Shown in pieces: positions 9,684 through 41,849 of a DNA stretch of 44,831 nucleotides. The stretch's first letter is position 1. Each line of letters opens with the position of its first letter. Source of the DNA: SAR324 cluster bacterium (GTDB lineage Bacteria > SAR324 > NAC60-12). Where the stretch lies: the NCBI GenBank assembly GCA_029245725.1, contig JAQWOT010000345.1:1-44831 (forward strand), read 5' to 3'. The notes beneath the pieces are model-generated. The model saw only the letters and a list, made by a program, of their open reading frames with translations. It ran no database searches and was not told where the DNA came from. The translations under genes were made by a program, and so were the position numbers.

Positions 9684-10979
9684 ATGAGTTCCCTTCCTAA
9701 GATTCTTGATCAAACGTTACGGGCAGCTCTTCAACGCTCTCAACCCAAAATTTGCCTACCAGAGTACTTAAAAGAAATTCAAGAAACAGAAAAATTGCCA
9801 GAGCGGATCATAGTTTTGGGAGCCGGAAAGGCATCAGCCGAGATGGCCAATTCGTTAGAAGATCATTGGCAGGGGAAAGATTGGGGAGCAAAATTGTGTG
9901 GTCTGGTGCTGACACGCTATGGCTATGGAGTACCCTGTAAATCCATTGAAATTGTCGAAGCAGATCATCCAGTACCTGACGAAATTGGCCTAATCACGGC
10001 TCAAAGAATTCTGAATCTAGCTGAATCTGCTACTGATCAAGATTTGGTAATCTGTCTGATTTCTGGTGGTGGTTCTGCTTTGTTGGCTCTACCTGGTAAG
10101 GGTCTTACCCTTCAAGACAAGCAAGCACTCAACAGATCTCTTCTCAATTCTGGGGCTACGATTGGAGAAATGAATTGCGTACGCAAACATCTTTCTGCAA
10201 TCAAAGGTGGGCGTCTCGCTCAAGCAGTTCAACCAGCAAGACTCTGGACTCTAGCAATCTCAGATGTTCCCGGAGACGATCTCTCTGTAATTGCTTCTGG
10301 CCCGACTGTTCCAGACCCTACTACTTTTTCAGATGCGCTAGAGATTTTAAGAAGGTATCAAATACAACCGACCCCAGCGATTCAAGCACTTTTAGAAGCA
10401 GCTGAGGAAGAAACTCCAAAACCTGGGGAAGACATTTTTTCAAGAAATCAAGTAAGGTTGGTTGCCACCCCGCAATTGATGCTCGAAGCTGCTGCAAAAG
10501 AAGCTGAGCAGCTTGGGATTACACCAATCATCCTAAGCGATCGTATTGAGGGTGAAGCCAGGGAGGTAGCCAAGGTTCATGCAGCGATTGCCAAGCAGAT
10601 CAAGCATCGACATCAACCAATCAACTCCCCAGCATTGATTTTGTCTGGGGGTGAAACCACTGTGACGGTTCGCGGTAAAGGTAAGGGAGGTAGGAATACG
10701 GAGTTTATCTTGTCTTTGCTTGAAGCCTTGCAGGGCGAAGAGAGAATTTCAGCAATTTCTGTCGACACTGACGGTATTGATGGCACAGAGGACAACGCTG
10801 GTGCTTGGATAGATCAGAACAGCTTTCTAAAAGCAAAACAGTTGAACCTCAAACCAAATGATTTCCTCGCTAATAATGATACCTACAGTTTCTTTCAGCA
10901 ATTGGAGCAACTTGTATTGACTGGTCCAACCATGACAAATGTGAATGACTTTCGGGCTATCTTCGTTAGTCAGCCGTAA
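9684..10979 (+). CDS. gck: glycerate 2-kinase (MOFRL family)
   Basis: 431 residues, full length for GckA/TtuD-type glycerate kinases. N-terminal DUF4147 domain with LGAGKASAEMA, SGGGSALLALPG and GEMNCVRKHLSAIKGGRLA; C-terminal MOFRL domain with LSGGETTVTVRGKGKGGRNT, SVDTDGIDGTEDNAGAW and the closing TNVNDFRAIFV. Phosphorylates D-glycerate at O2 with ATP, giving 2-phosphoglycerate for lower glycolysis. Second gene after hydroxypyruvate isomerase, consistent with a glyoxylate/hydroxypyruvate-to-glycolysis route. Its last 14 bases overlap the end of the convergent uvrA gene, so neither has room for its own terminator before the other's coding end. Confidence 0.92.
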   Translation: MSSLPKILDQTLRAALQRSQPKICLPEYLKEIQETEKLPERIIVLGAGKASAEMANSLEDHWQGKDWGAKLCGLVLTRYGYGVPCKSIEIVEADHPVPDEIGLITAQRILNLAESATDQDLVICLISGGGSALLALPGKGLTLQDKQALNRSLLNSGATIGEMNCVRKHLSAIKGGRLAQAVQPARLWTLAISDVPGDDLSVIASGPTVPDPTTFSDALEILRRYQIQPTPAIQALLEAAEEETPKPGEDIFSRNQVRLVATPQLMLEAAAKEAEQLGITPIILSDRIEGEAREVAKVHAAIAKQIKHRHQPINSPALILSGGETTVTVRGKGKGGRNTEFILSLLEALQGEERISAISVDTDGIDGTEDNAGAWIDQNSFLKAKQLNLKPNDFLANNDTYSFFQQLEQLVLTGPTMTNVNDFRAIFVSQP

Positions 10980-13900
10980 GTCCTGAATTCCATGATGGTT
11001 GCTGCTGAGGAATCAAAATATTTTTTGATGAACTGGTTTTGGTGCGTTTCCCTTCAAACATCTGGTTTTTAAGAACAGGCCAAAGTGCTCTTCCAGTATG
11101 ACTCGCTTCACAAGCCATGACTTGTTCAGGGGTTCCAGTGACGACTACCTCTCCTCCGTGAATACCCCCTTCTGGTCCAAGATCAATAACCCAATCAGCT
11201 GATTTGATGACTTCCAAATTGTGCTCAATGATCACCATTGTTCCCCCATCATCCACAATTCTATGCAGTACTTCTAATAAACGCCTCACATCATCAATGT
11301 GCAGACCCGTGGTTGGTTCATCAAGAATATAAAGTGTTTCTCCTTTTGATCTGCGAGAGAGTTCAGCCGAGAGCTTCAGCCGCTGTGCTTCCCCTCCTGA
11401 CAGAGTATTCCCTGCCTGACCCAACTTCATATAGCCAAGGCCCACATCTCTCATGGTCTGCAGAATTCTTAAAATCTTGTGCTGAGCTGCAAACAGTTGA
11501 CAAGCCTGTTCAATTTCAAGGTTGAGTACATCTGCGATTGTGTGTCCCTTGTACTCTACACTCAAAGTTTCTCGATTGTATCTCTTGCCCTGACATTGAT
11601 CACAAGTTACCCAAACATCGGAGAGAAAGTGCATTTCAATCAGATGATATCCCAGACCATCGCAGGCCGCACATCTTCCTTCGACAGAATTAAAAGAAAA
11701 ACGCCTAGGAGCAAATCCTCTTTGCCTTGCTGCAGGAAGTTTTGAAAAAAGATCCCGGATTGGTGACAGTGCGCCTGTATACGTTGAGGGATTACTTCTG
11801 GGTGTACGCCCTATCGGCTCTTGATCAATGATTCTGAGATATTTTAATTGCTCTAGTCCCTTGATCGTCTTGTGTTCTCCGATTTCACCAACATACCCAG
11901 AAAGCTTCTTTGCGACAGCTTTCTGCAGGACATCAATGATCAGAGAAGATTTGCCTGAACCACTCACGCCAGTCACAACAGTCAGACAACCCTTTGGGAT
12001 GTCAACGGAAATGTCCTTGAGGTTATTTACCTTGGCGTTTGAGATCGTGATCTGTCGTGCTGGATTGGGAAGTCTCCTGTGTGGGATCAGAATTCTTTGT
12101 CGATGACTCAAGTATTGCCCTGTGAGGGATTCTGAATCCAAGGCTAGGTCTCCTGGTGTTCCAGATGCGATGATTTTTCCACCATAGTGTCCAGCCCCTG
12201 GACCAATATCAATCAGATGATCCGCACGATTGATAACATCAAGATCATGTTCAACTAGCAGGACCGTGTTTCCAAGGTCACGTAGCTGTAGCAAAGTTTT
12301 CAATAATCGCTCGGTATCTCTCGGGTGTAGGCCAATGGTAGGTTCATCCAAGACATACAGCACCCCGGTCAACCCTGAGCCGATTTGAGATGCCAGACGA
12401 ATGCGTTGAGCCTCGCCACCTGAGAGCGTGTTGGATCGCTGATCTAATGTGAGGTATCCAAGACCTACATTGTGAAGGAATTTCAAACGACTGAGGATTT
12501 CATGAAGCGCTTGTTCAGCGATCGCCTGTTCGGTTGCGCTGAGTTCCCAAGTACTCACTTCTCGCAGGGCCTCGTCTACTCGCAATCTGCACAACTGGAG
12601 GATATTCCTCTGTCGAATGAGAACAGATCGATACTCGGGCTTTAACCTTTCACCATCACATGTTTTACAAGCACGAAAAACTAGTGAATCCAAATCTGTG
12701 TCTTCATCAAAATCCAAATTTCCAGTCAGTTCAATTTCACCAAGTCCATCACAATCTGGACATGCTCCAACGTGAGAATTGAAGGAAAACATTCTTGGGT
12801 TGAGTTCTTGAGTCAAGTAGTAGTCGCTTTGAACATTGCCCGGGACTTCAGAAAACCAGATCATCTTTTGGTCGTCCGGACGACGAGCGCAGAACAAGCC
12901 AATTCCCTGTTCGTAAGCGATGCTAGCGCTTTCAGCTAATCTTTGCTGTTCATCGACACTCACTCTGATCCTATCCACAACCAACCAAACCGCTACGGAC
13001 TTGGTAAGTTTAAGTTTTTTTGATTCGGACTCCCAATCATCAAACAAAATTAATTTATCCCCCACGTAAACTCTCAGGAATCCAGATTGTTGAAGCGCTG
13101 CCTGATGTTCTGGAAATTCCTTTGGATGTTTTAGTAAGGTGGGATGCTTGGAATCAGACCTAAACAATGGAGCCAGAATTTCAAGCCGATCTCCATCATA
13201 ATGATCTATAAGGAATCTGGCAGCCCGAGTTGCCGTGAAGCTTTTCAGAGGCAACCCTGTCTTTGGGCAATGAGCAACTCCAATTCTTGCGTATAAAAGA
13301 CGGAGATAGTCAAAAATCTCCGTGGTGGTTGCAACAATGGAGCGGGGATTACGACTGGAAGCTTTCTGATTAATCGCAATCGCTGGAGCAAGTCCATCAA
13401 TGCTATCAACAGGGGCCTTGTCCATTCTGCCGAGAAACCTTCTTGCATAAGTGGAGAGGGATTCAACATATCGAGCCTGCCCCTCCGCGAAGATGGTATC
13501 AAAAGCAAGGGAAGTCTTACCCGATCCGCTGACCCCTGTAATGACCGTAAACTGATGCTTTGGGATTTCAACATCCACATGGCGCAGGTTGTTTTTGCTG
13601 GCACCCCGAACAACTAGATCTCGCTCTTTTTTTTCGCTCCGAAAACCATTTATTGCATTGTGTTCGTTGACTTCCTCAGCTCTAGGAGATTCTTCACTTA
13701 ACTGCGTCTCCAATAGTGGTTTTAAGAATCCGCCTGTTAAAGTATTTAATTCAGCCAATTCCTCTGGGGTACCATTGCCCACCAATTTACCACCAAATTT
13801 GCCCCCACCTGGTCCCAATTCAATGACTTGATCGGCAAAGCGCAAAACATCGAGATTGTGTTCAATGACCAGCACACTATTACCCTGTTCAGCCAAGCGA

Positions 13901-16608
13901 TCCAAAGTCTGTAGCAGCGTGCGAATGTCTTGAAAGTGAAGTCCTGTCGTAGGTTCATCAAAGAGATACAGTGTCCGACCTGTGGATTTTTTTCGTAATT
14001 CTGAAGCTAACTTTACACGTTGAGCCTCACCCCCACTGAGGGTCGTAGATGGCTGCCCAAGCTTGACATACCCCAAGCCGACATCCAGCAGAGTCTGAAG
14101 GATGTGAAGGATTTTTGGTTGGTTTTCAAAAAGTTCAGCAGCTTCTGAGATTGTCAGTTCAAGAATTTCAAAGATCGTTTTGTGCTTGTAACGGATCTGT
14201 AGAGTTTCGGCATTGAATCGCTTGCCATCACAGGTTTCACAGGGAATTTGGACATCACTCAGAAACTGCATTTCAATGGTTTTCAACCCAGCCCCCTTGC
14301 AGTCTTCGCATCGCCCTCCTTTGACGTTGAAGGAAAATCTCCCCTTGTTGTATCCACGAATCCTTGACTCTGGAAGCATGGTGAAGAGATCACGAATCAG
14401 GTCAAAAACTTTGGTGTAGGTAGCCGGATTACTTCTTGGAGTTCGACCAATGGGGGACTGATTGATTTCAATCAGTCGATCCAGATGTTCCAGACCAGTA
14501 ACATGATCCCACTTCCCTTTGATTTCTTTTGATGTTTCCTCCTCGGTCGGTTCATTAGAGTCATCTTTTCCGTTTCCTTGCAGATGTTGCAATAAGGCTG
14601 GCCTCAGGATTCCATGCACTAGGCTCGATTTTCCGGAGCCACTGACTCCCGCCAAAACAACAAATAGTCCCAGGGGAATTTCGACATCCAAGCCCAACAG
14701 ATTATGCAAACGGGCATTTCTAATTGATAAACATCTTCCATCTGGAGTTCTTCGTTCAGTAGGAACTGGCATTTTTTCTTTTCCTACTAAGAACTGGGCT
14801 GTAACAGATTCAGGAGAGTCCAGAATCTCTTGAAAGCCACCTTGCGCAGTAATGTTTCCCCCATCTCGACCCGCTGTTGGTCCGATATCTATAATATGAT
14901 CAGCAGCACGGATGGTTTCTTCATCATGTTCCACCACAAAAACCGTGTTTCCACGGTCTCGTAGCATTTCCAAAGTTTTGATCAATCTCTGATTGTCACT
15001 TTGATGCAGACCGATACTTGGTTCATCGAGGACGTAGAGCACTCCCTGAAGACCAGAACCAAGTTGACTTGCTAAGCGAATACGCTGGCCTTCGCCTCCA
15101 GAAAGCGTAGCAGCTGAACGTTGAAGGCTGAGGTAGCCGAGTCCCACCTCACTTAAGAAAGAAAGGCGCGCACGAATTTCCCGAAAAAGATCCCGACCAA
15201 TCAATTCCTCTCTGTAGGTTAGTTCCAAACCTTCAAAAAAAGTGAGCGCTTCAGTGACTGAACAATCACCTAGGTCAACAATGTTTTGATCTCGGAAAGT
15301 TACAGCCCTTGCCATAGCATTCAGTCGGCTTCCACTACAATCCGGGCAAACAGCCCGCATTTGAAAGCGCTCCAAGGGTCCTTTTGCAAACCTGTAAACA
15401 AATTCCAAAATCGGAATCACACCAGCCCATTTACCTGCTTTGATTTGTTTCTTTAGATGGGAGGGGAATCGAAATACGTTGCCCACATAGAGAGAAACTT
15501 GTGCATTTCCTTTGAGAAACTGCTCTCTCTGCTGCTCAGGTAGTTCACCCCAAGATGAATTCAGATCGAGACCGAGCATCTTGGCCGCTGCATGTAGGTG
15601 GGATTTGTCAATTTTTGTGAAATGAATATTCCCGTTAGCAGTCACACATTGGACCGCACCATCTGTAAGAGTTTTTTCTGAATCACAGAGTCTGTCTTCA
15701 AGAAACTGTCGGGTCTCACCTAAGCCATTGCAGGTTGGACACGCGCCTTGGGGAGCATTGAAAGAGAAAAGTCGTGGTTCCTGTTCCGGTAGTGAAATCT
15801 GGCAGGTTGGACACGCACTCAATTGACTGAAGAGATGATCTTCTCCCTCGAAGTTCAGAATGACTAAGCCCTCACTCATTTTCAGCGCTTTTTCAATGCC
15901 TTCTGTTAGGCGACTTTTTTCATCTAAGCTTAAGACAAGTCGGTCGAGAACCAGCTCAATACTGTGTTTTTCATATCTTTTAAGTTCAATTTCCTCGTCA
16001 AGCCTACGAATCTCTCCATCAATCCGGGCCCTGACAAATCCATCTTGTACCCACTGTTGAATTTCCTTTCGATACTCTCCTTTTCGCTCTCGAACCATCG
16101 GAGCTAAAAGCGAGCAAGCCTCATCAAGAGCTACTGCATAAGCATGATCCGTAATCTGTTCTGGGGTTTGACTGGAAATTGGCGTTTTGCATTCAGGACA
16201 ATGTGGTTGCCCTAAACGAGCAAAAAGTAGTCGAAGATGGTCATAGATTTCAGTTACCGTTCCAACTGTCGAGCGTGGATTTCGGTTAACAGTTTTCTGA
16301 TCAACTGAGATGGTTGGACTCAAGCCTTCAATATGTTCAACCTTGGGTTTTTCCAACTGGCCCAGAAATTGTCGAGCATAAGCTGATAGTGATTCAACAA
16401 ATCTTCTTTGTCCTTCTTGAAAAATTGTGTCAAAAGCAAGTGATGATTTACCAGAACCACTCACACCCGTAAAAACGGTCAAAGTGTCTTTTGGAATATC
16501 AAGACTCAGATTCTTCAGATTGTGTTCACAAGCACCGGTTACCCGAATCATGTCATTTATTTTACTACTATGTTCAGAATTTAAATTGCTGTTTGGCTCT
16601 TCGGACAT
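10966..16608 (-). CDS. uvrA: tandem (duplicated) excinuclease subunit UvrA, four ABC domains
   Basis: 1880 residues, about twice normal UvrA (about 940). Two UvrA copies are fused head to tail: copy 1 about 1-975, a hydrophilic linker, copy 2 from about 995 (RDLVVRGASKNNLRHVD). Each copy has two ATPase modules: Walker A GVSGSGKS or GVSGSGKT near residues 47, 655, 1025 and 1546, signatures LSGGEGQRIRLASQ and LSGGEAQR, and Walker B LDEPSIGLH, FDEPTTGLH, LDEPTIGLH and LDEPTTGLH. Copy 1 keeps the zinc module CPTC...CPTC and UvrB-binding region; both copies keep the C-terminal zinc finger (CEDC/CETC, CAAC/CDQC). Copy 2 lacks the first CxxC of zinc module 1 and about 100 residues between CPDC and CKTC. 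UvrA recognises damaged DNA and loads UvrB. UvrA works as a dimer, so the fusion may be an intramolecular dimer; fused UvrA is known in Chlamydiae. Confidence 0.95.
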   Translation of the reverse strand: MSEEPNSNLNSEHSSKINDMIRVTGACEHNLKNLSLDIPKDTLTVFTGVSGSGKSSLAFDTIFQEGQRRFVESLSAYARQFLGQLEKPKVEHIEGLSPTISVDQKTVNRNPRSTVGTVTEIYDHLRLLFARLGQPHCPECKTPISSQTPEQITDHAYAVALDEACSLLAPMVRERKGEYRKEIQQWVQDGFVRARIDGEIRRLDEEIELKRYEKHSIELVLDRLVLSLDEKSRLTEGIEKALKMSEGLVILNFEGEDHLFSQLSACPTCQISLPEQEPRLFSFNAPQGACPTCNGLGETRQFLEDRLCDSEKTLTDGAVQCVTANGNIHFTKIDKSHLHAAAKMLGLDLNSSWGELPEQQREQFLKGNAQVSLYVGNVFRFPSHLKKQIKAGKWAGVIPILEFVYRFAKGPLERFQMRAVCPDCSGSRLNAMARAVTFRDQNIVDLGDCSVTEALTFFEGLELTYREELIGRDLFREIRARLSFLSEVGLGYLSLQRSAATLSGGEGQRIRLASQLGSGLQGVLYVLDEPSIGLHQSDNQRLIKTLEMLRDRGNTVFVVEHDEETIRAADHIIDIGPTAGRDGGNITAQGGFQEILDSPESVTAQFLVGKEKMPVPTERRTPDGRCLSIRNARLHNLLGLDVEIPLGLFVVLAGVSGSGKSSLVHGILRPALLQHLQGNGKDDSNEPTEEETSKEIKGKWDHVTGLEHLDRLIEINQSPIGRTPRSNPATYTKVFDLIRDLFTMLPESRIRGYNKGRFSFNVKGGRCEDCKGAGLKTIEMQFLSDVQIPCETCDGKRFNAETLQIRYKHKTIFEILELTISEAAELFENQPKILHILQTLLDVGLGYVKLGQPSTTLSGGEAQRVKLASELRKKSTGRTLYLFDEPTTGLHFQDIRTLLQTLDRLAEQGNSVLVIEHNLDVLRFADQVIELGPGGGKFGGKLVGNGTPEELAELNTLTGGFLKPLLETQLSEESPRAEEVNEHNAINGFRSEKKERDLVVRGASKNNLRHVDVEIPKHQFTVITGVSGSGKTSLAFDTIFAEGQARYVESLSTYARRFLGRMDKAPVDSIDGLAPAIAINQKASSRNPRSIVATTTEIFDYLRLLYARIGVAHCPKTGLPLKSFTATRAARFLIDHYDGDRLEILAPLFRSDSKHPTLLKHPKEFPEHQAALQQSGFLRVYVGDKLILFDDWESESKKLKLTKSVAVWLVVDRIRVSVDEQQRLAESASIAYEQGIGLFCARRPDDQKMIWFSEVPGNVQSDYYLTQELNPRMFSFNSHVGACPDCDGLGEIELTGNLDFDEDTDLDSLVFRACKTCDGERLKPEYRSVLIRQRNILQLCRLRVDEALREVSTWELSATEQAIAEQALHEILSRLKFLHNVGLGYLTLDQRSNTLSGGEAQRIRLASQIGSGLTGVLYVLDEPTIGLHPRDTERLLKTLLQLRDLGNTVLLVEHDLDVINRADHLIDIGPGAGHYGGKIIASGTPGDLALDSESLTGQYLSHRQRILIPHRRLPNPARQITISNAKVNNLKDISVDIPKGCLTVVTGVSGSGKSSLIIDVLQKAVAKKLSGYVGEIGEHKTIKGLEQLKYLRIIDQEPIGRTPRSNPSTYTGALSPIRDLFSKLPAARQRGFAPRRFSFNSVEGRCAACDGLGYHLIEMHFLSDVWVTCDQCQGKRYNRETLSVEYKGHTIADVLNLEIEQACQLFAAQHKILRILQTMRDVGLGYMKLGQAGNTLSGGEAQRLKLSAELSRRSKGETLYILDEPTTGLHIDDVRRLLEVLHRIVDDGGTMVIIEHNLEVIKSADWVIDLGPEGGIHGGEVVVTGTPEQVMACEASHTGRALWPVLKNQMFEGKRTKTSSSKNILIPQQQPSWNSGLTAD

Positions 16609-36404: not shown

Positions 36405-36524
36405 ATGACAAGAAAAAGAGTTCCTTACTCTTGCCATAGAGTTGGGTCTGGAGATGTTATAAACTCAAAGGGTTTCACATTGAGTATAGAAGCTAAAGCC
36501 GTCATTTCGGATGGGTATCCGTAA
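36405..36524 (+). CDS. possible 39-residue small ORF with a strong ribosome site
   Basis: ATG at 36405 follows AGGAGGGG with 6-nt spacing, the strongest plus-strand ribosome site in this gap. It encodes MTRKRVPYSCHRVGSGDVIN then about 19 more residues, ending at TAA 36522. The last 60 bp are antisense to the end of the Nudix-like gene, so its coding content is ambiguous. No family recognised; could be chance. Confidence 0.3.
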   Translation: MTRKRVPYSCHRVGSGDVINSKGFTLSIEAKAVISDGYP

Positions 36525-38105
36525 GCCCAGAGGTTGGGCGTGCTTAGTTAGCTGTTCGCGAAAAGATCGCTTTGGGTCCCCGAGTTCATCGGTAGGGAGT
36601 CCCTTCAGCACTTTCACCATATCCCGATACACTGTGGGTGTGATTCCACGAATGGAGAGATAACAATCAGGAAGTTCACCGATCGGAGTTTTTAGATCTG
36701 GAACGAGTAAATGCAGTTCGTATTTATCATTCTCGTGATAGGGCCGAAGCGTAAAAAAAGTTTCAGCAAAATAGAGATGGCCTTTACTTACCGACATCCG
36801 AAACCAACCTGCATCGCTCCCTTCAACAATTGGGAGACCTGAATTTCTGAATATTTCTGCTAGCTTATTAAGCTCTTCCCGTTCTGCCTCTCTCGTTTCA
36901 TCCAATTCCAACCAACCAAGCGGATGAATTTGGATCCAATCAGGAATGTCTTCAAGAGGAAAATCAGCCTGATGTAGCCTTAGCCATGCAAGCCCAATCA
37001 ACCAGGACTGCTGCCTTTCGTCCAACTCGATTTCCAGTGACTGTTCTTGTCCGCTGCGTCCATAGAGCAACAGACTTTCAGGCCCATAAGGCAAATCAAC
37101 TTGTTCTTCCACCAAATCAGCCATGACCATAGATTTGGGAACATCCTTGAGTTGTTGCCAAAACAATTTGCCCGCACTCTCTCGCCAAGCATCCACAAAA
37201 AACTTACGGTCACCCTGCTTTCCAATCAAAATTTCATCCGAGGTAGCCCAGACCAATTGGCCCTTTGGCATCTCGATTTGTCTCCTGCAAAGCTGTTGAA
37301 ATCCTGTTTGTGTTAATTGAACTGTGAAACAGTATATCTGATATCTAGTATAAGCATGATTTGCACGGGCTCCCTCCAACTTGTCATAGCTATCAAGTGT
37401 TTGGTGTAACTCAGCCTGATAATGCTGTGATAGCAGACCCAATTCTTCGTTCAGTTCTCTAGACAAAGTATGGGGAAGTGCTTGGAGGATGTGATTTACA
37501 TCCGCAGTTTGTTGCCATACTAGACGCTCTTCGATGGTTGATTCTGGGAAAGCTTTCTCCAAGTCATGTAAATTAAGACGCCCCCCGATCAGTACATGGT
37601 TTGGATTAGCTTTTCGCTCACGATCCTCCCGATGATTAAACAAGAGGCTGTTTTCAATTTTGATCAATGCCCAGGCTACCTGCACCTCACGTATCGGGGC
37701 TGGCTGATGTTCTTTATGGAAGTGAATTCTGCGATTTTCAACCTCGATCAGTAAATTTCGTTGTTGTTCTAGGTAACTTTCATTATGCCACCAGCCACTT
37801 TCAAAAAATTGGGGCCTTGGCGTTGCCAAACTATCCAAGAGGGAACGAGCCATCAGACTGGCTGGGTAACTAGTAAATTGCCACAAACCTTCTCGGAGCT
37901 TCGTTGAATCCAAGAGGCCCATCGCTTCCCAATTCTGTTGTAGCATCATGACCACTCCCTCCACAAAACCGTGTGTAATAGGCAAGTCGTCAGCAATCTC
38001 ATCAATTAGTTCTTTGCATGAAACTGAAGTCAGGAATGGACCTTCCTCAGCTATTCTTGGTAATCTATTCGGTAAAAATTCCAAAATCTTATTTAATTCA
38101 GCCAT
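36465..38105 (-). CDS. large protein with divergent Nudix-like motif, unknown function
   Basis: 546 residues; no signal or membrane span. The central region reads ALIKIENSLLFNHRE, then VLIGGRLNLHDLEKAF, and about 30 residues later TLSRELNEELGL (216-224), which fits the REUxEExGU core of the Nudix box; the Gly pair at 174-175 would be the start of the box, so about 27 extra residues are inserted compared with the standard 23-residue motif. Flanks are an N-terminal helical domain (1-about 140) and a C-terminal region of about 320 residues rich in Trp, Glu and Leu. Nudix enzymes split nucleoside diphosphates linked to X, such as ADP-ribose or NAD. It diverges from a macro-domain gene 338 bp away. 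Not a recognised named family. Confidence 0.6.
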   Translation of the reverse strand: MAELNKILEFLPNRLPRIAEEGPFLTSVSCKELIDEIADDLPITHGFVEGVVMMLQQNWEAMGLLDSTKLREGLWQFTSYPASLMARSLLDSLATPRPQFFESGWWHNESYLEQQRNLLIEVENRRIHFHKEHQPAPIREVQVAWALIKIENSLLFNHREDRERKANPNHVLIGGRLNLHDLEKAFPESTIEERLVWQQTADVNHILQALPHTLSRELNEELGLLSQHYQAELHQTLDSYDKLEGARANHAYTRYQIYCFTVQLTQTGFQQLCRRQIEMPKGQLVWATSDEILIGKQGDRKFFVDAWRESAGKLFWQQLKDVPKSMVMADLVEEQVDLPYGPESLLLYGRSGQEQSLEIELDERQQSWLIGLAWLRLHQADFPLEDIPDWIQIHPLGWLELDETREAEREELNKLAEIFRNSGLPIVEGSDAGWFRMSVSKGHLYFAETFFTLRPYHENDKYELHLLVPDLKTPIGELPDCYLSIRGITPTVYRDMVKVLKGLPTDELGDPKRSFREQLTKHAQPLGLRIPIRNDGFSFYTQCETL

Positions 38106-38284
38106 TGCATTTACTTTAAAATGATAATTTTAATAGCGTCATCAATAACTTCACGCAAATTAATCACTGAGGAAGTACGTGTTGGTTGCGATTTCAATAT
38201 CTTCTTTTTTAGGGAATGTATAAGTTCATCTGCAACGGATCTCTGCCATAAGAAACTTCAGTAGATGATGCTTTTGATAAATTC

Positions 38285-38313
38285 TTGACACAAGTTGAGT
38301 GCAAATGTAGTTT
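38285..38313 (+). promoter_or_regulatory. possible promoter of the macro-domain gene
   Basis: TTGACA (38285-38290, perfect -35) is followed after exactly 17 nt by TAGTTT (38308-38313, a poor -10). The gap between the two divergent genes (38106-38443) holds this, the palindrome at 38307 and nothing else obvious. Confidence 0.4.
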
Positions 38314-38324
38314 CACCAAACTAC
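38307..38324. promoter_or_regulatory. palindrome overlapping the macro-gene promoter
   Basis: GTAGTTT / AAACTAC, perfect 7-bp arms with 4-nt spacer, covering the predicted -10. A further ACTAAC-type half-copy follows near 38336. Shape and place suit a repressor operator shared by the divergent pair. Confidence 0.45.
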
Positions 38325-38443
38325 GATAGCCTATTTACTAACTACGACATCTTCATTTCTTGAAAATAATTGATTTATTCTGAGGGGAAAACATTCCGAT
38401 GCAGCAATTTGAATAAAACCATCATCGTCCTAATAAGGTTTTG

Positions 38444-40138
38444 ATGCGTTTACAAGCAATTCTTGGAGATATCACTGAACTCAGTGTCGATGCTATCGTC
38501 AATTCATGCAATAACCAAATGCATCTTGGCTATTCTGAAATTTCAAAGTGCATCCAAGAAATTACCGAAGGAAGGATTCAGCAAGCATTATTACATGATC
38601 CCAACATTGAACTTCCTGTGCCTCTTGGGACTGTCTGTGTAACAAAAGGAGATTTGTTACCCTGCCGATGGATCTTTCATTTGGCAACACATCGTTCTTG
38701 GGAAGAAATGAGTCGGGATGCTCATCTAGAGGAGGGAGATCAAGAATTTTGGGAAATCGTACAAGAACTCGTCCTAGATGCAATTCGAGTCGGTCTGAAC
38801 AACCTCATTGCTACATCTGAAGAAATTCAGGCAAAGTCTCTAGCACTTCCTCTAATCGGCTCTGGATCATTAGGATTTCCCATTAGTTTGATGGCAGATG
38901 TTATTTTAGGGACCCTCCATCAAATTCTTGAGGAAACTCCTACAAATCACTTAAAGAAAATCCAAGTGGTCACATTGGATGAAAAAGTGTTTCAAGCCCT
39001 TCAAGAGAGAATAGATGGCCTTGACTGGAACTTTGCTGAAAAAAATTCTTTTGCTACAGAAGAGGACTGGGAGGAATTCTTAGCAGAAACTGGCAGTGAA
39101 TCGCCAATCTCCAATGAACCAACTTTAGAGAGTGAGCCTGAAAAAAGAATACTTGAAAAAGGTCTAGAAGATTTACGAAATCAGCTTCAAACCTCTCACC
39201 AACGAGAAAAACGCTTACTACGACAAATAGAGCAGTTGGTTCGTGAAAATAAGGAACTGAAAGCAAAAGCTCATAGAGCTATTACGGGACAATCACAACC
39301 AATTGATCTTTGGGCTAGAATAGATCTACCCTCTCCTTTAGCGTATGCACAAAATTTGAGAATGGCAGAAACAGACCCGAATCGCTGCCACATCAACATG
39401 TTGAATGCTATTGGGATCGTTTCAAAATATTTTTCAGCGCTGATCTGTGCAGAGTATCTTCACGCTGGCTGCTTTTCAAAGGAATTAAATTCAGAATTAC
39501 GTCATCGCTTTCGCCAAGGCCCGATGACAGATGGTAGTTGGGTTTGGGTCGGGAAACGAATCGCCAGAGCTTTTTACGATGCAGATTTGTATGGACAGCT
39601 GGTTCGGGAGGTTCCAAGAGCTTGGATTACAGAACGTGGAGAATGGGGTGGCTTTTCTGAAGCATTGCAACAATTGGTCAGCTATCGTAATCGCATCCAC
39701 GATCCCGTTAATGCAGATTCAGGTCACGCTAGTGCCTGGTTAGAATTAGTTCTGCCGGTTTGGGTACAAATGTGTAAGTACAGCGAACCAATGACGTCAT
39801 ATGAGTTGCTCTTCATTGATCAGATCAGCGATTTCTCAGACGATCTTGGGGAGGAAGTGAGTTATTCAATCAAGCGATTACGGGGAGGATTTTTTGTACC
39901 TCCAAGTGAAACGCTCAAGCTTAGACAGCATCTTAAAAGTGGCCGTCTTTATCTACAGAGTGCGAACAGCCCGGATCTATTATCACTCCATCCATTCTTA
40001 ACCTATGAGTATAGTCGAGTAACGAATAATCGTGAAACCTTCTGCTTAGATCAAATCCAGCATTCCACTTTGCACTACAAGGCTTTTCGCTACGCACACC
40101 GAAGTAGCCTTAATGACGATAAGCAGTTTCCACTGTAA
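38444..40138 (+). CDS. macro domain, coiled coil and HEPN-like helical domain protein
   Basis: 564 residues from ATG 38444 (AAGG upstream; a TTG at 38441 is possible). Residues 1-about 190: macro domain, with LGDITELSVDAIVNSCNN at the start and LPLIGSGSLGFP (136-146), the two ADP-ribose-contact loops; the usual GGG loop is replaced by HLGYSE, so binding or hydrolysis may be altered. About 225-280: charged coiled coil. About 290-440: helical domain with PSPLAYAQNLRMAETDPNRC, AEYL and YRNRIHD (414-420); RNxxxH-like motifs of this sort mark HEPN-type domains, often RNases in defence and toxin systems. The last 120 residues are unassigned. Divergent from the Nudix-like gene, so ADP-ribose or NAD chemistry is a natural but unproven link. 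Confidence 0.7.
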   Translation: MRLQAILGDITELSVDAIVNSCNNQMHLGYSEISKCIQEITEGRIQQALLHDPNIELPVPLGTVCVTKGDLLPCRWIFHLATHRSWEEMSRDAHLEEGDQEFWEIVQELVLDAIRVGLNNLIATSEEIQAKSLALPLIGSGSLGFPISLMADVILGTLHQILEETPTNHLKKIQVVTLDEKVFQALQERIDGLDWNFAEKNSFATEEDWEEFLAETGSESPISNEPTLESEPEKRILEKGLEDLRNQLQTSHQREKRLLRQIEQLVRENKELKAKAHRAITGQSQPIDLWARIDLPSPLAYAQNLRMAETDPNRCHINMLNAIGIVSKYFSALICAEYLHAGCFSKELNSELRHRFRQGPMTDGSWVWVGKRIARAFYDADLYGQLVREVPRAWITERGEWGGFSEALQQLVSYRNRIHDPVNADSGHASAWLELVLPVWVQMCKYSEPMTSYELLFIDQISDFSDDLGEEVSYSIKRLRGGFFVPPSETLKLRQHLKSGRLYLQSANSPDLLSLHPFLTYEYSRVTNNRETFCLDQIQHSTLHYKAFRYAHRSSLNDDKQFPL

Positions 40139-40193: not shown

Positions 40194-41849
40194 TCAACAT
40201 CCCTCCACGTAGTAGCCTCTCAGAAAATTGCTTCGGCAAGGATGTCGTAATTTAACAAGCGCTTGAAAAAGTAGCTGTCGGATCCGCTCCCGAGTAATTT
40301 TAAATTCCTTGCCAATTTCATCGAGTGTGTACTCCCGCTTGTGACCAATTCCAAATCGCATTTTGACAATTTTCTCCTGACGTGGCGGTAGCTGTGTCAG
40401 CATCTCCTCAATAACCTCTGAGAGGTCAGTTTTCATCATAGTTTGAAGAGGATCCACCACATTTTGATCTGGCACCACATTCTGCAGGGTGCTTCCCTCC
40501 TCACTTCCATATGGCTTGTCGATGGAAAGAGGATCATTCATGTTGTGCAACAATTCATGGACAAGTTCTTCTGGCATCCTGCTGCGCTCGACTACCTCAA
40601 CCAGTGTCGGCTGACGTCCCAATTCCATCCCCAATTGCTGAGAGGTCTTCAGTACGCGTTTCCCTTTATCAATCATGTGAACTGGGATCCGAATGGTTCT
40701 CGAATGATCTGCAATTGCTCTGGACATCGACTGGCGAATCCACCAGTTTGCGTAAGTGGATAATTTGCAACCTCGCTCGTAGTCGAACTTTTCGATAGCC
40801 CTCATCAGCCCCAAATTGCCTTCCTGAATTAGATCCTCGATCCCCAGTCCACAATGGAAGTACTTGCGGGCAATGCTAACGACAAGTCGAAGATTGGCTT
40901 CCATTAGACGGTTTTTCGCTGTCTTCATGACTTCTAGTGATTTCTGTAATTTCATCACTTGGGATAAAAATTCCTTTTCATCCTGACCAGTCTGTTCAAC
41001 CAAATCTTTTTTCCACTTCATGACTGATTCCAGCAATTGATATTCCTGCAAGACGTCCTTAAATGACTGTCCTTCCAGATCCTTAATTTCCAATTGTAGG
41101 GCAGCCTCTATTGGGACATTTCCAGGTTTTTTTGCTTCCTCCCAACTTTGCATCGACTTGAAAAGCTTTTTGGATTCTACACTCTGGGATTGTTGAAGCT
41201 CGGCAATTTGCTCGCTTGCACATTCAATTTCTCGAACTCGTTGAACAAGAAATTCTGTGAATTTTTCAATCTGGCTTTGATTGAAAGAAATCCACTGAAT
41301 CTGCGAATGGATTCTATTGGACAATTTATCTATCTCTTCCTTTTCCAATCGGTTTAGTTTTGAAGCTTGACCAGAATTTTTGATCATTTGCCTTGAAATG
41401 AAATCATCAGAAACCAGACGAAGTTGCTGAACTAAGGTCTCAACTCGGCTCTCTTCATCCGTCTCAAAATCATCATCATCATTAACAACAGTGATGTGAC
41501 GAATGGTGATCTCTCCATTCTCCAGTCGTTGTGCCAAGTTTTGGATTTCATCAAAAACCAGTTTTGATCCGAAAAGGATCTCTTCAATCTTTTGACGATG
41601 TGATTCAATTTTTTTGGCTAGTGCTGACTCTTGTTTGCGATCAAGCAGTTCGACCCTGCTGACATCTTTTACATAAAGTTGAAAAGAATCCTGAATCGAA
41701 GATTTCTCTTTATCCACAGCAGATGAACGCGCTGATTTAGCCACAAAATTTCCTTCATCTTCACTTGAATCAGAAGCTTCTAAAACTCCAGCAAATGCGA
41801 GATGATGATTGGTTGTATTGTCTGCGTTTACAAAATTTAGAGCTTCCAT
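40194..41849 (-). CDS. RpoD-like sigma-70 factor (paralogue type)
   Basis: 551 residues. Region 1.2 about 52-80 ([18 protein letters not shown]), a long variable region about 81-305 rich in Glu/Gln, region 2 about 311-385 ([57 protein letters not shown]), region 3 to about 465, region 4 about 475-541 ([34 protein letters not shown]). There is no region 1.1. Loop GLGIEDL differs from the usual RpoD GLQFLDL, and the tail HPCRSN replaces HPSR, so a second RpoD-like factor rather than the housekeeping one is likely. AAGGAGG lies 6 nt before the ATG, a strong ribosome site. Directs RNA polymerase to a promoter set. Confidence 0.88.

Follow-up and report, generated by a model that had tools for sequence, protein, structure and literature searches.

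Organization of the locus

We analysed a 44,831-nucleotide stretch of DNA from a SAR324 cluster bacterium (contig JAQWOT010000345.1, positions 1 to 44,831; hereafter the window), in which two adjacent genes encode a Nudix-family protein and a protein with an N-terminal macro domain. A preliminary description of this DNA had noted two long open reading frames (ORFs) diverging from a 338-bp gap, and the coordinates and strands bear this out. The ORF of the macro protein opens at a TTG at 38441 (565 amino acids). Translation more likely starts at the ATG at 38444, which follows AAGG (564 amino acids), and the gap is counted to this codon. The features of the pair are as follows.

36465..38105, minus strand: Nudix-family protein, 546 amino acids, with a helical, winged-helix-like N-terminus, a Nudix domain and an uncharacterised C-terminal domain
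37821..38105, minus strand: residues 1-95, N-terminal domain resembling a winged helix (weak evidence, from the order of elements in an AlphaFold2 (AF2) model)
37236..37691, minus strand: residues 139-290, Nudix domain, in which 36-40 residues run from GG to the RExxEE helix throughout the family
37434..37460, minus strand: residues 216-224, RELNEELGL, the metal-binding half of the Nudix box, with invariant residues
38275..38317, plus strand: conserved 43-bp block in the divergent gap, with TTGACA and the imperfect inverted repeat TTGACAC..GTGCAA
38444..40138, plus strand: protein of 564 amino acids composed of a macro domain, a coiled-coil-like linker and an effector-like C-terminal part
38444..39013, plus strand: residues 1-190, macro domain (Pfam, PDB matches, alignment)
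39014..39289, plus strand: residues 191-282, charged, fast-changing, coiled-coil-like linker (substitution rates, weak coiled-coil Pfam matches)
39290..39793, plus strand: residues 283-450, very strongly conserved helical domain carrying RNRIH at 39686-39700
39794..40135, plus strand: residues 451-564, C-terminal domain, probably beta-rich (low-confidence predicted strands)

Both genes are under purifying selection across the genus, with a ratio of nonsynonymous to synonymous substitution rates (dN/dS) of about 0.05-0.10. Because of this low ratio, and because the adjacency of the two genes outlasts a change in their orientation (see below), the ORF pair is taken to be more than a product of chance. 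Within the gap, 37 of the 43 columns of the conserved block are identical in three genomes, compared to 43% identity outside it. None of 10,000 permutations (0/10,000) reached this conservation in a column-shuffling test, which ignores autocorrelation. The block is likely a shared promoter or operator, judging from its position and its repeat. A consensus promoter and terminator scan of the intergenic gap found nothing.

The macro-domain protein

The N-terminal macro domain named in the preliminary description was recovered by Pfam (E=1.3e-10; score 41.7 bits, cut-off 22) and by matches to macro domains in the PDB down to E=2e-17, the top ones being those of PARP14 and macroH2A1.1. The macro domains of PARP14 and macroH2A1.1 are ADP-ribose binders. 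An alignment with macro domains of solved structure showed that the GDIT, NSCN and PLIGSGSLGFP elements were retained. Hydrolytic macro domains have their catalytic Asp in a glycine loop, GGGG(V/I)D, and this loop was lost: the window protein has LG-YSEIS at this position, and its homologue in another genus (G012, described below) has LGGRHSV. Since the domain has lost the catalytic loop and kept the binding elements, the simplest inference is that it acts as a reader or binder rather than as an eraser or hydrolase.

The linker evolves faster (dN/dS of 0.16-0.31) than the flanking domains, for which the ratio was below 0.1 in most comparisons. The approximately 280 C-terminal residues are under extreme constraint (dN/dS of 0.00-0.06, and about 0.01 in the last domain), and they matched no Pfam or PDB profile. 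When phage, plasmid and viral contigs were searched for relatives of the macro protein, only macro domains were found, and the C-terminal module was unmatched.

The preliminary description had likened a YRNRIHD motif in this C-terminal part to those of HEPN RNases, which are defined by an R-x4-6-H motif (PMC3710099). The letters are present; the spacing, RNRIH or RNQIH, is R-x3-H in all aligned homologues of the macro protein. Because of this spacing and the lack of Pfam or PDB profile support, identification of the C-terminus as a HEPN RNase was rejected in the form proposed.

The Nudix-family protein

By its sequence, the left-hand gene belongs to the Nudix family. The RELNEELGL core reported earlier was confirmed: R216, E217, E220 and E221 do not vary among the homologues (47/47). 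The window protein alone scored 14.4 bits, below the Pfam cut-off of 21.1, and 6 of 8 family members matched Pfam NUDIX at E<1 (best 7.4e-6). A profile of the family matched MutT-type enzymes, the E. coli CTP pyrophosphohydrolase (2rrk, E=0.0024) among them, in two colinear pieces that flank an insertion. In every member, 36-40 residues run from GG to R216, and the conserved E expected eight residues before R216 is absent; the full box, G-x5-E-x7-REUxEExGU, is therefore not satisfied with its standard spacing. The protein escapes Pfam because this stretch separates GG from the RExxEE helix. Taken together, the hidden Markov model searches suggested in the preliminary description detected the macro domain above its cut-off and the Nudix domain through the family profile, and left the HEPN assignment unmatched.

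The AF2 models of both proteins were poor, with a mean pLDDT (predicted local distance difference test) of 48.5 for the Nudix protein and 41.5 for the macro protein. Thus, structure prediction, also suggested beforehand as a check, could not test the folds, and a PDB fold search with these models was meaningless; at the sequence level, both the macro and the Nudix cores are present. The best-predicted part of the Nudix model is residues 1-90 (pLDDT of 57-88 by block), where three consecutive helices are followed by short strands. Across the family, this N-terminal domain carries invariant EE and W-F-SFPA motifs. From the order of its elements in the model, residues 1-95 may form a winged helix-turn-helix (wHTH), which is a weak assignment.

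Linkage of the two genes and association with BREX

We compared 52 genomes of the phylum, many of which are incomplete metagenome assemblies; the closest named relatives of the window genome are metagenome-assembled genomes (MAGs) labelled Deltaproteobacteria. The macro protein was found in 5 of the 52 and the full-length Nudix protein in 4, all of which also carry the macro protein. The macro gene of the fifth (G002, of this genus) is cut by the contig end. The two genes are adjacent in all four genomes in which the macro gene lies on a long enough contig (4/4). They are divergent in three genomes of this genus (G000, which is the window genome, G001 and G005). In G012, a member of another genus, they are codirectional and 20 bp apart, and the proteins share 43% and 37% identity with those of the window.

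The neighbourhood survey proposed in the preliminary description showed that the homologues adjoin each other in this second genus, and that they are attached there to an operon of a bacteriophage exclusion (BREX) system. The order in G012 is PglX-PglZ-BrxL-198 aa-Nudix-macro on one strand, with overlaps or gaps of 20 bp or less, so that the pair forms the last genes of the BREX run; BrxC would fall past the contig end. That the genes have stayed adjacent despite the changed orientation is a good indication that they are functionally linked, based on two lineages only. The 198-amino-acid ORF between BrxL and the Nudix gene (L023 3576-4172, minus strand) has a CxxC-rich end (CQKCMGNGCNECNNGF) and no family match.

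In this genus, the block flanking the pair is syntenic in four genomes at approximately 87% nucleotide identity. In two congeners that lack the pair (G003 and G004, 68-80% complete), only weak ABC-type matches to this flank were found.

Nudix relatives beside other defence systems

A search with the Nudix profile gave hits in 55 of 301 genomes in the order of a Methylomicrobium MAG. In sparser samples, hits were obtained in 4 of 369 genomes at the level of the class, and in 2 of 399 from the phylum of another relative. Plasmid relatives were found in Methylomonas and Methylobacter only.

In 35 of 45 Nudix loci, hereafter Methylococcales-type loci, a receiver/HEPN-like protein is encoded upstream on the same strand, mostly preceded by a Sel1/histidine-kinase-like protein. 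This receiver/HEPN-like partner has RNWxxH in 34 of 34 aligned sequences, which is a proper R-x4-H motif. Homology between it and the C-terminus of the macro protein was considered, and hhalign found nothing. Small, variable genes of the toxin-antitoxin type lie between the receiver/HEPN-like and the Nudix genes (PIN toxins, antitoxin-like ORFs and Uma2), with 25 cargo patterns in the 35 loci. No PADLOC name was found for the core genes. The arrangement may be that of an effector locus under two-component control, or a hotspot for cargo genes. In L027, L031, L038 and L092-L130, the core lies on one strand in the order of a protein of approximately 190 amino acids, the Sel1/histidine-kinase-like protein, the receiver plus HEPN-like protein, cargo and the Nudix protein.

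Elsewhere, a type ISP restriction-modification enzyme follows the Nudix gene in G343, and a truncated Nudix N-terminus adjoins Mokosh-like MkoA/MkoB in G175 (L041 1398-7321), with an overlapping transposase-like ORF. The recurrence of defence genes beside the Nudix family is suggestive rather than a measured enrichment over chance. G343 also has a second, C-terminal-only copy of the family (L040 8733-9482, minus strand), with no obvious defence genes nearby.

A putative ADP-ribose-type module and its alternatives

We propose, at a probability of about 0.45 and on the basis of sequence comparison, that the pair forms a two-gene ADP-ribose-type signalling module, in which a macro reader and effector would be matched by a Nudix counterpart. 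The ligand of the macro domain would be ADP-ribose-like or else an ADP-ribosylated molecule. The conserved helical and beta module at the C-terminus would provide the output and would most likely bind RNA or act on it. In the direction of control that we favour, the Nudix protein would hydrolyse the ADP-ribose-type ligand and so end the signal; it may also control the divergent promoter that the two genes share, through its winged-helix-like N-terminus. Because the pair forms part of a BREX operon in one of its versions, the module would most likely be triggered by phage infection, or by a related stress that increases the level of ADP-ribose derivatives.

Such a conflict module, which the preliminary description had raised, leads among the explanations because the macro and Nudix assignments hold, because the genes are attached to BREX in G012, and because the Nudix family has defence neighbours in other genomes. 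The HEPN part of the original idea was not upheld. A more specific form of the proposal would be a previously undescribed, ADP-ribose-gated conflict module. It would combine a macro reader, a new output that acts on or binds RNA, and a Nudix eraser-regulator, and would occur either standalone or in a BREX operon; in methanotrophs, the same Nudix family would form the constant end of loci whose effectors are exchanged. We consider this fuller version rather doubtful. BREX, Nudix and macro domains were not found together in the literature searched, and such absence is no proof of novelty. If correct, the proposal would add an ADP-ribose reader-eraser pair to BREX and name a Nudix family found repeatedly next to several defence systems that are unrelated to one another. 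The pair also offers proteins that can be tested, including a nearly invariant C-terminal module that has no assignment.

Several observations weigh against the proposed module. The C-terminal motif of the macro protein lacks the HEPN spacing and no profile supports a HEPN domain, and both AF2 models are too poor to judge the folds. The pair occurs in two genera only, and BREX was seen beside it on one contig only. In this genus, the pair is flanked by a sugar-transport operon on one side and a sigma factor gene on the other, and no defence system was found among the neighbouring ORFs scanned. No NAD-consuming signal maker (TIR, SIR2 or ART) was seen beside the pair. At its dN/dS, the pair evolves like an ordinary stable gene.

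This stability, the purifying selection and the missing defence island in this genus leave room for a role outside defence. The Nudix protein could clear ADP-ribose, dinucleotides or capped RNA as ordinary housekeeping, and the macro protein could bind ADP-ribose derivatives in stress, with no phage conflict involved. The synteny of the locus and its flanks in four genomes speaks for such a role; its patchy occurrence (5/52 genomes), its placement beside BREX in G012 and the recurrent defence neighbours of the Nudix family would be unusual for it, and we regard it as unlikely. Alternatively, the Nudix protein could mainly be a ligand-sensing transcription regulator, with a winged helix and a Nudix domain as in NrtR and the Nudix regulators of loci centred on ADP-ribosylglycohydrolase (ARG). 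It would then regulate whichever effector adjoins it, which would be the macro protein in the window, BREX in G012 and toxin-antitoxin cargo in Methylococcales. This is consistent with the winged-helix-like N-terminus being the best-predicted part of the Nudix model, with the palindrome-bearing block in the shared promoter region, with the changing effector partners of the family, and with Nudix-HTH (helix-turn-helix) fusions described in ADP-ribose conflict loci (PMC9503650). However, a pure sensor need not keep RExxEE, which is retained in 47/47 members, the protein of approximately 550 amino acids is far longer than NrtR, and the wHTH comes from a weak model. A mainly regulatory role, which overlaps with the proposed module, is improbable.

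A toxin-antitoxin pair, with the macro protein as a toxin with an RNase-like C-terminus and the Nudix protein as its antitoxin, or the reverse, would fit the adjacency of the genes and the toxin-antitoxin cargo common beside Nudix relatives. It is very unlikely, since both proteins are large, their orientation varies, a DarT- or MNT-like partner is absent and the HEPN motif is non-canonical.

Comparison with known systems

In TM-macro Thoeris, the macro domain of ThsA binds ADP-ribose or imidazole adenine dinucleotide (IAD) and serves as the effector switch in phage defence (PMC11204291). The likeness lies in a macro domain used as an ADP-ribose-triggered switch, which is a precedent for a macro effector. 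In contrast, the macro domain in the window is joined to a coiled-coil-like linker, followed by a C-terminal module instead of a transmembrane part, and the protein has a Nudix partner. Its match to ThsA was insignificant (PADLOC, E=0.06), and no ThsB or TIR protein was seen among the neighbouring ORFs scanned. DarTG also has a macro protein in a two-gene unit, and a weak similarity to DarG was detected (NCBIfam, 18 bits). However, this score compares with a cut-off of 250 bits, the hydrolytic glycine loop is lost here, and no ORF for a DarT ADP-ribosyltransferase was identified on either side of the pair.

BREX loci can carry backup effectors, including HEPN RNases (PMC12839542), and the pair in G012 ends a BREX operon. 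Neither Nudix nor ADP-ribose appears in the text of this 2026 diversity survey, and PglZ is absent from the window genome. Proteins with an HTH and a Nudix domain are encoded beside ADP-ribose-acting genes in ARG-centred loci, where they were proposed to be ADP-ribose sensors (PMC9503650). The Nudix protein beside the macro gene would be of a similar type, but it contains a large insertion and is extended by a further C-terminal domain, and an ADP-ribosylglycohydrolase or phosphatase was not seen here. By analogy, the pair would share the logic of Csm6/Csx1 and ring nucleases in type III CRISPR systems, in which a sensor-output fusion is accompanied by a ligand-removing enzyme. The differences are that the sensor here is a macro and not a CARF domain, that the ligand would be of another class, that HEPN is not established, and that no CRISPR was seen.

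Neighbouring genes

One further gene may belong to the locus.

40194..41849, minus strand: divergent paralogue of sigma-70 (RpoD type), in convergent orientation to the macro gene

An orthologue is present in all four macro-bearing genomes of the genus, and the incomplete, pair-less congeners G003 and G004 have only approximately 36%-identical paralogues. It is possible that this sigma factor is a third component of the module; the gene was not seen beside the BREX-linked pair of G012, as far as the contig reaches. Its identification as an MzaA homologue was rejected, as the match is a generic sigma-70 match with a higher score for RpoD, and the MzaA score was 308 against a cut-off of 800.

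Elsewhere in the window (10966-16608), a double-length UvrA-like protein of 1880 amino acids is encoded, three stretches of which match UvrA profiles.

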